NCBI RefSeq assembly: GCF_000305775.1
Contig: NC_018866.1
Location: 682,001 to 746,000, forward strand
Reading direction: 5' to 3'
DNA length: 64,000 nt
Source: Dehalobacter sp. DCA
Lineage (GTDB): Bacteria; Bacillota; Desulfitobacteriia; Desulfitobacteriales; Syntrophobotulaceae
Shown here: one piece after another, positions 23,501-47,220 of the stretch
How the letters are laid out: each line of letters starts with the position of its first letter
Position numbering within the stretch: the first letter of the stretch is position 1
Position numbers and translations under genes: made by a program
Notes under the pieces: generated by a model
What the model saw: the letters and a program-made list of their open reading frames with translations, nothing else
What the model was told of the DNA's origin: nothing
Databases searched by the model: none

Positions 23501-23670
23501 CTCGTGCAACGTTCTCAAATTCTCTACTCAAATAATTCATGAAAGCTTGATTACCCCAATGAGGTCTGGGGGGCACAGTTCCAGCGTTAAGCGGAGCATG
23601 GAGGCGGAGCGCGGCTGTTTGTGCCACGGATGGCATAAATTTGGGTATTTATTTCAAGAGCGTTGTACTA
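23501..23670. repeat. MITE-like element A (truncated structured repeat with TIRs)
   Basis: About 170 bp with ends that are inverted repeats: left CTCGTGCAACGTTCTCAAAT, right (reverse complement) TAGTACAACGCTCTTGAAAT. Its core, from GGTCTGGGGGG (23561) to GCCACGGATGGCA, matches elements at 43440-43547, 43667-43773 and 45433-45665, but the 3' half of the core palindrome is deleted. The right end supplies the TAG stop codon of ylmH. Confidence 0.75.
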
Positions 23671-24471
23671 GACATACTTTTTAATCACGATGGACTGGCG
23701 GCCTTTTTTAGAAAGTCCACCTATTTCCTGAAGCTTAATTTTTCCGAAGCCGCGCAAAGATAGCGTATCCCCTTCCGCAACCGTCTTATCTGTTTTGTCA
23801 CATTCCAGCGAATTCAGCATGACCTTTCCGGATTCAACATATTCCCCCGCTTTGGTACGGCTTAAGTTAAAACCTGCCGCGACCACACTGTCCAGCCGTA
23901 ATGAGGCTACGGTGTCTTTCAGCAGAAGAACTTTTTCTTCCGGTATTTGCAGCAATCCCGCAGGGATGATTGCTGTTTTTATTTTGACGCGACCGACTGA
24001 TTCCAGATTGTTTATCAGGAACGGCAGGATTTCTTTCAGGACAATCAGATCCGTGCTGTTTTCCCCGACCAGAATGTCACCGACCGTTTCCCGTTTGATT
24101 CCTGCCCCCATCAAACTACCTAGGAAATCCCGATGCGACAGGCCGCTGTCTGCAGGATATTCCGCCCGGATAAAAGCTAATGGGCAATATTCATCATCCT
24201 GAATGACTTGTTCAGGCTCCAAGTAGTCCGGCAGAAAGACCAATACGGTACGCTCAGCCCCTTCATAGCCTCCCCAGAAAAAGTGCCGGGGGTTTCCGCT
24301 CGCTTTCAGCGCATTTCCAAGCAGCACCCGCTGCTGTTCATTACAGAACCGCGTGCAAACCGGAATATTTTTCTTTTCTGATTCATCAAGTTTGTCCAGC
24401 GCCCGCGCAAGCAGCAATTTGCTCTCTTCATCCTGGGCATATTTTTTGACGGTTTCGGTTTTTGTGATCAT
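23668..24471 (-). CDS. ylmH: YlmH family S4-domain RNA-binding protein
   Basis: 267 residues. The N-terminal two thirds have the YlmH pattern (FCNEQQRVLLGNAL, FFWGGYEGAERTVLVFLPDYL, SHRDFLGSLMGAGIKRETVGDILV). Residues ~185-250 are an S4 RNA-binding domain (LRLDSVVAAGFNLSRTKAGEYVESGKVMLN). In Bacillus this protein binds the 50S-peptidyl-tRNA complex and can act in ribosome quality control, and it is historically tied to the division cluster. Here it stands outside any division cluster. Its final codon TAG is provided by the terminal inverted repeat of the adjacent MITE-like element, so the native C-terminus may have been altered by a residue or so. Confidence 0.92.
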   Translation of the reverse strand: MITKTETVKKYAQDEESKLLLARALDKLDESEKKNIPVCTRFCNEQQRVLLGNALKASGNPRHFFWGGYEGAERTVLVFLPDYLEPEQVIQDDEYCPLAFIRAEYPADSGLSHRDFLGSLMGAGIKRETVGDILVGENSTDLIVLKEILPFLINNLESVGRVKIKTAIIPAGLLQIPEEKVLLLKDTVASLRLDSVVAAGFNLSRTKAGEYVESGKVMLNSLECDKTDKTVAEGDTLSLRGFGKIKLQEIGGLSKKGRQSIVIKKYV

Positions 24472-42536: not shown

Positions 42537-43352
42537 TTACTTCATCCGGTCCAGCGCTTTCAAGATGCCGTAAATAATGGCCTGAGGCCGTGGTGGGCAG
42601 CCAGGGATATACACATCGACCGGTACAATGGTATCGATGCCGTTGTTGGTGGCATAGGAGTCCTTAAAAATGCCGCCGCTGCAAGCGCAGGCGCCCACTG
42701 CCACGACCAGTTTTGGATCAGGTGCTGCATGATACGTCTTCACCAGCGCTTGCTGCATATTTCTGGTTGCGGTGCCTGTCACCAAAAGCATATCGGCATG
42801 TCTTGGCGACGCCACAAAACTGATCCCGAGCCTTTCAATATCGTTGACAGGATTGTTCAGCGCATTGATCTCATAATCACAGCCGTTGCAGGAGCCGGAA
42901 TCCACTTCTCTGATCTGCAGGCTCCGGCCGAACATTTTTTTAATCTTTGCTTCCAGGTCCCTGCAAACCGCTTTATAGGAGGTGTCAGGCAGGTTATTTT
43001 CATCAATAATCAGCGTTTGATTTTTGACAGCCACTGTTTTATCCACGTGGAGCATTGCTTTATCCTTTTCAGCCAGCTCAAATTGATTGGTGGTTGTTAC
43101 TGCGCCTGTAGGACAGACTTCTTCACACAGCACACAGAAGATGCACGCGTCATAGTTAATCCCAATGATGCCTGCTTCCTTAGCCATCACGATTGCCTGA
43201 GAGGGACAGCGCAGGACACATTCCCCGCAAAAACTGCACTTTTCAGGATTGATTTCGGTCTGCCCCAGAAACTGACCGCCGCTGGCGGGTATTTTGGGAT
43301 ATTCCTGGGTAAGCCTTGGGTATTGGATGATTTTTTTTAGCGTCTTAAACAT
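42537..43352 (-). CDS. Hydrogenase-4-like fused ferredoxin/small subunit (HyfH+HyfI-type)
   Basis: 271 residues. Residues ~35-90 hold two 4Fe-4S motifs of the HyfH/NuoI type (CSFCGECVLRCP and CIFCVLCEEVCP). Residues ~130-270 are the NuoB/HyfI-like small subunit with the proximal-cluster cysteines in SGSCNGCDYE, GACACSGG and PGCPPRPQ. In hydrogenases 3 and 4 these are separate proteins, so this is a fusion. It would carry electrons from the donor to the large-subunit interface. It is the last gene of the operon; 446 bp with two structured repeats separate it from the large subunit gene, so its expression may need read-through. Confidence 0.88.
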   Translation of the reverse strand: MFKTLKKIIQYPRLTQEYPKIPASGGQFLGQTEINPEKCSFCGECVLRCPSQAIVMAKEAGIIGINYDACIFCVLCEEVCPTGAVTTTNQFELAEKDKAMLHVDKTVAVKNQTLIIDENNLPDTSYKAVCRDLEAKIKKMFGRSLQIREVDSGSCNGCDYEINALNNPVNDIERLGISFVASPRHADMLLVTGTATRNMQQALVKTYHAAPDPKLVVAVGACACSGGIFKDSYATNNGIDTIVPVDVYIPGCPPRPQAIIYGILKALDRMK

Positions 43353-43399
43353 TTCTTAGTCTTCCTTACTCGTACAGTGTATTTTGATCAATAGGTGAA

Positions 43400-43438
43400 T
43401 TAGTATCTTGGATTAGTATCTTGGTTAGTATCTTGGGC
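43400..43438. repeat. Short tandem repeat, ~13 bp x 3
   Basis: ATTAGTATCTTGG occurs three times in tandem (third copy lacks the first A), between the HyfH/I-like gene and the first structured palindromic repeat. Confidence 0.8.
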
Positions 43439-43439
43439 C

Positions 43440-43547
43440 TGTCTGCATGCCACAATTCCGCTTTCGGCCATTGTGTCATCCTTGACACAAAAGGCCGCGC
43501 TACGCACTCCATGCTCCGCTTGACGCTGGAACCGTGGCACGCAGACT
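43440..43547 (-). repeat. Structured palindromic repeat, copy B1
   Basis: 108 bp in inverted orientation relative to the other copies. Outer arms GTCTGCATGCCAC/GTGGCACGCAGAC with one G-T type mismatch. Inner stem on the minus strand TTGTGTCA-agga-TGACACAA, where the other copies have GTGCCA/TGGCAC or GCGCCA/TGGCGC, a covarying pair. Confidence 0.85.
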
Positions 43548-43666
43548 AATTAAAAGCTGGTTAAGTATGTCTTGCATGCAAGACATTGATATGGTTAATT
43601 GATTAAAGTAAGTTGTACGATTACACCTAAAAAATATGCAAGCCTACTTGAATATGCATAAGATCA

Positions 43667-43773
43667 GTCTGGGGGCCACAGTTCCACTGTGAGCGGAGCA
43701 GGATTGCGCAGCGCGGCCTTTTGTGCCACGGATGGCACAAAGGCCGGAAAGTGGTATTGTGGCCCCCAGACTT
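43667..43773 (+). repeat. Structured palindromic repeat, copy B2
   Basis: 107 bp with perfect 15-bp outer arms AGTCTGGGGGCCACA / TGTGGCCCCCAGACT, an inner stem CGGCC/GGCCG and a tip hairpin TTGTGCCA-cgga-TGGCACAA. Faces B1 across a spacer holding the 20-bp palindrome ATGTCTTGCATGCAAGACAT (43567-43586). The right end reaches within ~26 bp of the large-subunit stop codon. Confidence 0.88.
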
Positions 43774-43798
43774 GCCCCAGATCGCGGTAAACCGCTCT

Positions 43799-45400
43799 TT
43801 AGAGATCGTTCCCTGCGTAGGAAAGGTTAAAGCTTTTATTGATCAGCGGAAAATCCGGCACAATATTGCCTTTGACGGCATGACAGAGGGCTGGCCAGTT
43901 GCAGAAAGACGGCGTCCGTATTTTATAGCGGTACACAGTATTGTTCTCGCCTGTCATCAGCCAGTGGATGTTTTCGCCGCGCGGGGCTTCGGTCAAGCCG
44001 AAAGCAAAGCGATACGGTTCAACAGCCTCAACAAGTTTCAGTACTTTCCCTGAAGGCATTTGATTGATCGCCTGGATCATCAGGTTAATGGATTCGAAGC
44101 ACTCCTCTATTTTGGTATTCAGCCGGCAGTTGATATCGCCGTTGTAATGTTCCGGGATATTAAAATTGAGCTGCGGATAAGCTTCGTACGGGAAAGATTT
44201 CCGAACATCATAGCGCAGTCCTGAAGCCCTGCCGCCGGGGCCGACCGTATTCAGATCGGCGGCAATTTTCTGATCTAGAATACCGGTATTTTCTATCCTG
44301 TCAATAAATAAACTGTTGGCTTTAATAATCTCGACAGTGTCCTCAAGCTCGTGGCAAATTTTATTCAGCTGGGCAATCAGACTGGTTTCCTTTCCTGCCA
44401 CAAAGTCTTTTCTAATCCCGCCCGGCTTATTGACACTTCGCAGAAAGCGCATGCCGCATAGCTCATCGGCTAAAGCATAAGCCCAGCCTCTGATCATCCG
44501 GAACTGGAACGTCGCAAACCCGTAAGCAGCGTCAAGACAAACACCGCCGAGATCGCCCAGATGACTGGTGAGTCTCTCCAACTCGGCAAAAATGACCCGG
44601 GTGTAGGCTGCCCTGACCGGAGCTTCGATTCCGACAATCTTTTCGATGGCCTGACAGTACGCCAGGGAATTGGCAAAGGTCTCATCTCCTGAAATCCGTT
44701 CCGAAATATACAGGCATTTCTCAATGCTTTGCTGTTCGGCCAGTTTCTCTATTCCTTTATGGACAAAGTACAATTGTGCTTCAAGATTAATGATCGGTTC
44801 TCCGGCCACACTGAAACGGAAATGGCCCGGTTCGATGATTCCGGCATGGACAGGTCCGACCGGAATCTCATAGACCCCTTCACCTTCAACCTTACGGAAA
44901 TTAATCTCTTCTGCCGCCCGCTGCGGTCTGTATCCGGCTGGAAAAGCTTTATGCAGCGGATAAACCCCGTTCGGCCAGTTGCTATGAAAAACCAGTCTTT
45001 TGGCATCCGGGTGGCCTAACGGGATGATTCCGAATAAATCCTTGATTTCCCGCTCGTACGCTGCCGCAGCTTGGATAATATTGCTGATGGATGGCATTTC
45101 CATTTTGTCGGGACTGACCGACGTTTTCACCACCACAAGCAGTGCCTCCTGTCTGTCCGCAAAAACGTAATAAACGCCAAAGCAGGAATTCTGACTTTGT
45201 TCATCATTGGCAAACATCAAGACAAGCGGATAATCCAGTTCTTTATTCAAGTAGGCGCATATTCCGGGAACACTTTCCGAAGCTGTTTTCAGATAAAGCT
45301 CATGATCCTGGCTATTCCTGTTTCTCCCGCCAATATCGGCCAACTCTGCAACGAAGAACTTTTCTGCGATTATTTGTTTTAATTCGGATGCCTTCATCAT
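43799..45400 (-). CDS. hyfG: NuoCD/HyfG-like large subunit lacking NiFe ligands (Ehr-type)
   Basis: 533 residues from ATG 45400 (GAGGTAG upstream; a second ATG follows directly). Residues ~1-150 are NuoC-like; ~170-533 are NuoD/HyfG-like (GPVHAGIIEPGHFRF, VHKGIEKLAEQ). The two CxxC pairs that bind Ni-Fe are absent: the first site reads ERISGDETFANSLAY where hydrogenases have GxCxxxH, and the C-terminal site reads INKSFNLSYAGNDL with no Cys pair. It is therefore not a working NiFe hydrogenase but an energy-converting-hydrogenase-related (Ehr) subunit. It should dock the 4Fe-4S small subunit onto the membrane arm. A MITE-like element lies ~33 bp upstream of the start. Confidence 0.88.
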   Translation of the reverse strand: MMKASELKQIIAEKFFVAELADIGGRNRNSQDHELYLKTASESVPGICAYLNKELDYPLVLMFANDEQSQNSCFGVYYVFADRQEALLVVVKTSVSPDKMEMPSISNIIQAAAAYEREIKDLFGIIPLGHPDAKRLVFHSNWPNGVYPLHKAFPAGYRPQRAAEEINFRKVEGEGVYEIPVGPVHAGIIEPGHFRFSVAGEPIINLEAQLYFVHKGIEKLAEQQSIEKCLYISERISGDETFANSLAYCQAIEKIVGIEAPVRAAYTRVIFAELERLTSHLGDLGGVCLDAAYGFATFQFRMIRGWAYALADELCGMRFLRSVNKPGGIRKDFVAGKETSLIAQLNKICHELEDTVEIIKANSLFIDRIENTGILDQKIAADLNTVGPGGRASGLRYDVRKSFPYEAYPQLNFNIPEHYNGDINCRLNTKIEECFESINLMIQAINQMPSGKVLKLVEAVEPYRFAFGLTEAPRGENIHWLMTGENNTVYRYKIRTPSFCNWPALCHAVKGNIVPDFPLINKSFNLSYAGNDL

Positions 45401-45432
45401 CTCTACCTCTATTTTCAGCAATATTTCATTGA

Positions 45433-45665
45433 CTAGTACAACGTTCTCAAATTCCCTGCTCAAATAATTCATCCAAGCTTGATTACCCTAAATGAGGTCT
45501 GGGGATCACAATTTCAGCGTTAAGCGGAGCATGGAGGCGGAGCGCGGCTTTTTGCGCCACGGATGGCGCAACAGCCGAAAGCGGAATTGTGGTGCACAGG
45601 TCAACCCGGGAGTTTAACGCAATCATAATCATATATTTGAGTATTTATTACAGGAACTTGTACTA
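45433..45665. repeat. MITE-like element C, fullest copy with TIRs
   Basis: About 233 bp with inverted ends TAGTACAACGTTCTCAAAT (left) and TAGTACAAGTTCCTG (right, reverse complement). The core (about 45499-45603) is the structured repeat with CGGCT/AGCCG and GCGCCA-cgga-TGGCGC stems. It shares its left flank (TCAAATAATTCAT, AAGCTTGATTACC) with element A at 23501-23670, so core and flanks moved together. It lies in the 332-bp gap between hyfF and the large-subunit gene. Confidence 0.82.
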
Positions 45666-45732
45666 ACAGATCGATTCGTAAATATGTTGCTGTCTTTAAA
45701 CCATTTTGTTTTAACAGGATTTACGAATCCCT

Positions 45733-47220
45733 TTATTGGATTGTACCTAGGATAATGCCCTGAGCCTGAATAATCAGCTCCCGGACACTTTCCGGCAGAT
45801 AGATCCCACCGGCTGTAACGGCCACCAACAGAACAGCCAGGCAGATGGTCCCGGGGATGTTGATTTCTCCTGTCCTGGGATCAGCAGCCTCTATACTATC
45901 CGGCTTACCATAAAACATTTTAAAAAGCGTCACAGCTATGCCGGCAAAAACAATCGCCAGTAGCAGAATGAACACAATTCCGACCCAAAGACTGGACTGG
46001 TTGAAGATTGCGGCGATAATGCTGAACTCACTCGCAAATACACTGAAGGGCGGTGTTCCGGCAATTGCAAACAAACCGAGCAGAAAGACCGTTCCCGAAA
46101 CAGGCAACGTCTTCAGAATCCCTTTGATCTTGAAAATCTGTTTGGTGTCATATTTCTGCATGATATTGCCGGCAGATAAAAACAGCATGGATTTGGTCAG
46201 TGAGTGATTGATCATATGCAGCAACCCGCCAAAAACGGACAACGGTGTAAAGATCCCGATCGCAACAGCGATAATTCCCATATGTTCAATACTGGAATAA
46301 GCCAGAAGCCGCTTATAATCCTTCTGCGTCAGAATGAATACCGCTGCGGTGGCAATCGATAAAATCCCGATACCGATGAGGAGCCGCCCGGTAAAGCTGC
46401 TGCTGCCCTGATTGTGATTCACAATGGCCGTCGTCCGGATAATTCCATACATCGCACTGTTCAGAAGAACACCGGACAGCATAGCACTGATCGGTGATGG
46501 AGCCTGACTGTGCGCATCAGGCAGCCAGGTATGCATCGGAGCAAGACCGGCTTTCGTCCCGAATCCGACCAAAATAAAGATAAACGCCAGGCGCAGGACG
46601 GAACTTTTTAAGGATGCCGCGTTGGTATACAGCGCCGTCCAGTCCAAAAATGAGCCACTTTCCAAAATTCCGGCCGAAGAAAGGTGCAGCAAAATGATAC
46701 CCAGCAGGGCAACCGCAATGCCGACAGAACAGATAATTACATACTTCCACGCCGCTTCAAGCGCATAGCGATTGTTATAAAAGCCGACCAAAAAGGCTGA
46801 GGCCAGCGTTGTCGCTTCGATCGCAATCCACATCAGACCCATGTTTTTGACTGTCAGCGCCAGTACCATCGTAAAAATAAAAGTCACCATCAGCATATAG
46901 TACAGCCGAATTTTTTTGACCGGCAGCTTACCCTGTCTGACTTCTTCCTCAAGATAACCGATCGAAAAGATGGCCGCCATCAAACCTATCGTCAGGACAA
47001 TATCCAGAATCATCATGCTCAGAGCATCGAGATAAAAAAATCCGCCCAGCGAAGAATAGGCAATCGCTCCATATCGTATGACTCTATGGGTCAGAATGGC
47101 TGCAATGATCAGCAGCAGCACGGCTGATGAGACATTGACGAGGTGCTGCAGCCGCTTAGGTTTAAGTATAAAGAGCAGCAGTAAGGCAATGATTGGAATG
47201 ACCAGAAGTAAAAAGCCCAT
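45733..47220 (-). CDS. hyfF: Hydrogenase-4-like membrane subunit HyfF (antiporter-like)
   Basis: 495 residues, about 14 membrane helices, NuoL/M/N-MrpD family. Visible: LMWIAIEATTLASAFLVGFY with the conserved Glu of helix 5, the lysine-bearing FGTKAGLAPMHTWLPDAHSQ, APSPISAMLSG, and AYSSIEHMGIIAVAIG. These residues line the proton (or sodium) channel. It should form one ion-pumping unit of the membrane arm. It follows hyfE after 11 bp. Confidence 0.92.
   Translation of the reverse strand: MGFLLLVIPIIALLLLFILKPKRLQHLVNVSSAVLLLIIAAILTHRVIRYGAIAYSSLGGFFYLDALSMMILDIVLTIGLMAAIFSIGYLEEEVRQGKLPVKKIRLYYMLMVTFIFTMVLALTVKNMGLMWIAIEATTLASAFLVGFYNNRYALEAAWKYVIICSVGIAVALLGIILLHLSSAGILESGSFLDWTALYTNAASLKSSVLRLAFIFILVGFGTKAGLAPMHTWLPDAHSQAPSPISAMLSGVLLNSAMYGIIRTTAIVNHNQGSSSFTGRLLIGIGILSIATAAVFILTQKDYKRLLAYSSIEHMGIIAVAIGIFTPLSVFGGLLHMINHSLTKSMLFLSAGNIMQKYDTKQIFKIKGILKTLPVSGTVFLLGLFAIAGTPPFSVFASEFSIIAAIFNQSSLWVGIVFILLLAIVFAGIAVTLFKMFYGKPDSIEAADPRTGEINIPGTICLAVLLVAVTAGGIYLPESVRELIIQAQGIILGTIQ

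Follow-up and report, generated by a model that had tools for sequence, protein, structure and literature searches.

A conserved, folded core of probable miniature transposons in Dehalobacter and other genera

The window analysed here is a 64,000-nucleotide stretch (positions 682,001 to 746,000) of the single 3,069,953-base contig of Dehalobacter sp. DCA (G000). In it, two successive gaps of a minus-strand gene run at 42537-47220, which by eye resembles a hydrogenase or complex-I-type operon from its open reading frames, are filled by a divergent pair of structured elements and by a small transposon-like (MITE) unit. The pair consists of a subtype A2 copy on the minus strand (43434..43549; 125.8 bits with covariance model R1) followed by a subtype A1 copy on the plus strand (43664..43778; 116.5 bits). 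A third copy, of subtype A2 and on the plus strand (45494..45608; 105.4 bits with R1), lies inside a 228-bp unit (45436..45663) that is set between a TA at 45434-45435 and a TA at 45664-45665 and has the inverted ends GTACAACGTTCTC.../...GAACTTGTAC. A second unit of the same kind is internally deleted (23504..23668; left end CTCGTGCAACGTTCTC, right end GAGCGTTGTACTAG) and shares 90% identity with the first across its first ~135 bases; a BLAST match places in it a plus-strand element cut off after the tip hairpin (23558..23639). A preliminary description of this DNA had reported four copies of a palindromic repeat. The places it gave were correct, as the three window copies each score above 100 bits and the copy lacking its 3' part falls within 23501-23671, while the number was far too low. 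Its spans 45433-45665 and 23501-23670 do contain the element, as parts of larger units with inverted GTACAACGTTCTC ends and not as plain copies.

Copies in G000 were sought by BLAST and a covariance model, and the stretches around matches were inspected. The ~107-nt element is present in at least 60 copies in this 3.07-Mb genome, and the matches listed for the four congeners (G001, G002, G003 and G004) number 49-60 per genome. Outside the genus its distribution is patchy across other genera, that of G018 among them; G013 and G041 are further element-bearing genomes. The preliminary description had allowed that a covariance-model search of the genome and its relatives might return only its own copies, with no significant covariation; both further copies and, as described below, strong covariation were found. 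The elements are intergenic, with 35 between tandem, 9 between convergent and 2 between divergent genes as judged from open reading frames, and they show no preferred direction with respect to host genes (15 lie the same way, 20 the opposite way). Placement mostly in co-directional gaps, on either strand and seldom between divergent genes, is what would be expected of a tolerated mobile element and not of a leader RNA.

Folded alone, the stretches holding the plus-strand (43660-43780) and minus-strand (43430-43555) members of the pair were better than all 200 shuffles, with z values of -6.6 and -7.4, respectively, and 45430-45670 gave a z of -3.5. An alignment of 48 full copies (130 columns) reveals a common plan, in which an outer stem of ~20 pairs is followed by unpaired, conserved AAGCGGAGC, a short GC-ANGGAN-GC hairpin, AGCGCGGC, a hairpin at the tip whose loop is ANGGAN, and finally GCCGAAAGCGG, which shuts the outer stem. 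The compensatory changes described earlier in the tip and middle stem were seen again. The TCTG...CAGA outer stem, previously thought common to all copies, does occur but is not universal, and other subtypes pair GTCTCCGTAATGG with CCATTACGGAGAC or AACGTGACG with CGTCACGTT.

Some copies have a tip that is larger by ~51 nt, which form two additional GGA-loop hairpins. The minus-strand copy at window site 1 has a plain tip in G000 and G004 and a large tip in G002. In G013 (L114 and L118; 1501-1663) the two-hairpin piece occupies the same internal position in the opposite orientation, so that its GGA falls on the other strand, and this arrangement suggests that it may be a module of its own. At site 1 of G001 a lone hybrid element (L065, 2428-2533) takes the place of the pair, as though a deletion had removed the spacer between the two tips. 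What looks like an inversion at L017 is better explained by a divergent pair of which different members have survived.

To judge whether the fold is maintained, pairing was scored with a structure derived from a window copy, itself one of the aligned sequences. Across the 48 copies, 95.3% of cells are paired, 26 of the 36 pairs have changed on both sides, and 233 cells are doubly changed, values matched by none of 500 shuffles. Control structures slid along the alignment pair at 26-42% of cells, a comparison that favours the chosen structure because it was taken from one sequence; the double changes are independent of that choice. In four genomes of other genera the outer stem is wholly different and is still paired: in an alignment that was fitted to the covariance model, 96.3% of cells are paired, 281 are doubly changed, 19 of 20 outer pairs are altered on both sides, and none of 500 shuffles did as well for the main measures. 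The stems also contain 40 G.T pairs against 6 A.C mismatches (BLAST-built alignment, one usually-G.T column left out), a difference for which any p-value is inexact because the copies are related. A palindrome in decay should yield equal numbers of the two. Since the stems accept G.T but not A.C, one strand appears to be the one that folds.

Comparison of orthologous copies adds a measure of rate. At sites set by strict flanks, with comparisons having eight or more paired differences removed (n=37 kept), paired positions differ at 3.3%, unpaired positions at 6.4% and flanks at 6.6%. Together with the cross-genus covariation and the excess of G.T over A.C, this slower change supports the earlier proposal that the folded form is selected or otherwise maintained. 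The same comparisons argue for a process acting on the DNA. Double Watson-Crick to Watson-Crick changes number 18 pairs in the 37 comparisons, against ~1 expected if the two sides changed independently. At some sites an entire outer stem has been exchanged. At that of L014 (G000), L145 (G001) and L146 (G004), one species has an A2 outer stem and two have a B stem; all 11 differing outer and inner pairs remain paired, and the element has diverged more than its flanks. Such excess double changes and the L014 stem swap indicate that gene conversion, or templating of one arm by the other, explains part of the within-genome covariation.

These observations raise the alternative that the fold matters as DNA alone, as a fold-back or cruciform used in transposition or as a symmetry kept by hairpin-templated correction and gene conversion, with no role for RNA. 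Frequent deletions within the palindrome and the random orientation to genes would suit such a reading, as would coordinated changes and whole-stem swaps, which conversion predicts. However, copying from arm to arm would not be expected to conserve unpaired bases across genera, as is seen for AAGCGGAGC, GAAAGC and the GGA loops, nor to favour G.T over A.C, and gene conversion or templating does not account for either. We regard the DNA-only explanation as a serious contender that probably falls short. The conserved unpaired bases and the G.T bias instead suggest that the element works as a folded single strand.

The units that carry the element are short (165-290 bp), non-coding and bounded by terminal inverted repeats of the GTACAACGTTCTC type. 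In the congener G004 the flanks of window unit 45436-45663 are joined without the unit, to within 1-2 bases. A second empty site, the cleanest, is provided by L028, where G002 has a related unit of ~212 bp arranged as CTAG|TATACCGTTCTC...[element]...GATCAATGTA|CTAG, and G000 and G001 read TTCTAGAG, with a single CTAG; at this site a duplicated TA is indistinguishable from a duplicated CTAG. Many copies of GTACAACGTTCTC-type ends are present in G003, where ~19-20 sampled sites show ends adjoining CTAG. Nearly all of these sampled units have one structured element, in either orientation, and near-identical units occur in unrelated flanks. Most G000 copies lack recognisable terminal repeats, and orthologous G000 sites are common to the sister genomes and decay through deletions inside the palindrome. 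L034 and L045, whose lengths fit empty sites, turned out to be internal palindrome deletions of this sort. Downstream of several B-type loci in G000 (L028, L034, L037 and L032) lies TAGATCGATTCGTA, with 0-2 mismatches, which may be a terminus of yet another kind of MITE.

The element thus belongs to a dispersed multicopy family that inserts precisely, leaves empty sites for comparison, and has kept its fold over long evolution. Among the options raised earlier, that of a MITE core is borne out by the empty sites and the many CTAG-flanked units, and very probably the element forms the folding core, conserved and specific to one strand, of small non-autonomous transposons. Integron attC sites were considered and set aside, since the copies are dispersed and MITE-bounded. 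A literature search turned up no description of MITEs in Dehalobacter. In G018 (L108 and L116; ~1501-1615) two core copies lie between other ends, GGGGCTGTTGCAAAAC.../...GTTTTGCAACAGCCCC, so that the core, on these two copies, seems not to depend on any single family of transposons.

The position of GTACAACGTTCTC ends at TA within CTAG-like targets points to a transposase of the IS630/Tc1-mariner type working in trans. A 1,233-bp insertion sequence of the IS630 type, with CTAG at both ends, occurs three times in G003; one copy (L105, 900-2150), with two overlapping frames of 154 and 229 aa, adjoins a MITE with a structured core. The start of this insertion sequence, CTAGTACAGTGTTAAAT, resembles the MITE start, CTAGTACAACGTTCTC or CTAGTACAGCATTCTTT, only close to the tip. 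Both G000 and G004 lack the IS630-type transposase family PF13358, and no Y1 transposase of family PF01797 is present in G000, G002 or G004, despite ~60 copies in each of the latter three. As G000 has neither type of transposase, its copies look old. In the mechanism that we propose, an IS630/Tc1-mariner-type transposase would act in trans on GTACAACGTTCTC ends at TA within CTAG-like targets, and the mobilising enzyme may since have been lost from G000, where most copies would be old.

The preliminary description had also offered a REP-like element handled by a RAYT transposase. In that case the elements would be moved single-stranded by a Y1 enzyme, the unit being the fold together with a CCCNARA motif on both sides. 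Like REP/BIME sequences they are folded repeats that occur as divergent pairs: all 14 pairs of neighbours less than 500 bp apart in G000 are divergent. Most copies are preceded by CCYNARAT and followed by RCCCNARA, a similar motif is seen in G041, and RAYT-sized Y1 proteins are present in G003, G013, G015 and G018. The motif cannot be a target duplication, as its variable bases disagree between the two sides of a copy, and is better described as fixed. Against REP-like mobility, the absence of a Y1 domain from three genomes rich in copies eliminates a resident Y1/RAYT mobiliser in G000, and the one clean insertion examined is bounded by terminal inverted repeats and CTAG rather than by the CCC motif. 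We therefore consider this explanation very improbable and retain the MITE-core reading.

The loops offer a clue to what the folded strand may do. Tip loops contain GGA in all 48 aligned copies, and 45 are ANGGAN hexaloops; second hairpins have GGA in 40 of 48 copies and lack it in 8, and in other genera have it in 30 of 31. A hairpin with an ANGGAN hexaloop is the target of RsmE/CsrA (PMC7652899), and it is on the same ground, its loops, that the TwoAYGGAY RNA was proposed to bind CsrA (PMC4333381). G000 carries csrA, a gene present in 10 of the 12 element-bearing genomes checked; it was not detected in the drafts of G018 (84% complete, 51 copies) and G041 (91% complete, 36 copies). The near-invariance of the loops makes a CsrA-binding RNA the leading guess. 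The core would be copied into RNA, its long outer stem would present two short A-N-GGA-N-loop hairpins, or more where the tip is enlarged, and its action would lie in capturing a GGA-reading protein of the CsrA/RsmE type, in the manner of CsrB/RsmZ-like RNAs. Binding itself, predicted by analogy, is put forward tentatively and is in our judgement less likely than not. The eight second hairpins without GGA, the two drafts in which csrA was not detected and the inverted tip module of G013 weigh against it. Taken as a whole, the explanation that the MITE core works as folded RNA, with capture of CsrA by the GGA loops as the most likely, predicted last step, is in our judgement likely to be right. 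The hairpins resemble those of the CsrB/CsrC and RsmX/Y/Z small RNAs in their GGA loops, mostly ANGGAN. Those RNAs differ in having many loops at one locus, whereas the element has two loops and is dispersed in mobile copies.

The closest named relative is TwoAYGGAY (RF01731), a clostridial RNA with an outer stem and two AYGGAY-capped hairpins. The element might be a variant of it, and hence a host cis-regulatory or small RNA rather than part of a transposon. The shared plan and a best copy of 37.2 bits speak for this, but no copy reaches the gathering score of 43, Rfam gave no gathering match at 20 loci of other genera, and the element is multicopy, mobile and randomly oriented to genes. We judge it improbable that the element is a host RNA of this kind. 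Mobility of TwoAYGGAY is not described in the literature consulted. At Rfam thresholds the earlier statement that no named family has this sequence stands, TwoAYGGAY being a relative that scores too low to pass them, and no match to a known IS end or Rfam family emerged.

Folded MITEs with IS630 links are already known. According to the consulted portions of PMC3049150 and PMC2229807, RUP of Streptococcus pneumoniae is linked to IS630-Spn1, is ~107 bp long, strongly folded and present in ~100 copies, inserts at TA, and has been proposed to be mobilised in trans by the IS630 transposase. It is thus similar in size, fold and target, but its terminal repeats belong to the folded 107 bp. In the present case the unit extends beyond the folded core, and the core is met again in other genera, where its outer stems differ and where, in G018, the ends differ as well; the same portions report no GGA hairpins for RUP. 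The Correia/NEMIS elements of Neisseria, likewise as covered by the portion of PMC2229807 consulted, come in a ~107-bp and a ~155-bp form, of which the second contains an internal stretch of 50 bp that recalls the ~51-nt tip module that is present or absent here. Sequence and ends differ, and the internal piece is an IHF-site region in Correia and two GGA-loop hairpins in the present element. What is new is that the core keeps its structure from genus to genus, that it is reused with stems, and apparently also with ends, that differ, and that it bears GGA hairpins.

A more far-reaching possibility, which we consider rather unlikely, is that the core is a selfish RNA module which bears CsrA-type GGA hairpins and which unrelated MITE backbones have acquired in different genera (GTACAACGTTCTC here, GGGGCTGTTGCAAAAC in G018), which would place dozens of mobile decoys on a global regulator of the host. 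MITEs are usually viewed as passive fold-backs with an arbitrary sequence in between. In this family it is the inner part that is conserved across genera, with compensation in the stems, invariant bases in the loops and a preferred strand, and the outer stems and transposon ends that are exchanged. If the GGA loops do bind CsrA, this would be a mobile element family built around a global regulator of its host, and it would give the unexplained TwoAYGGAY RNA a biological setting.
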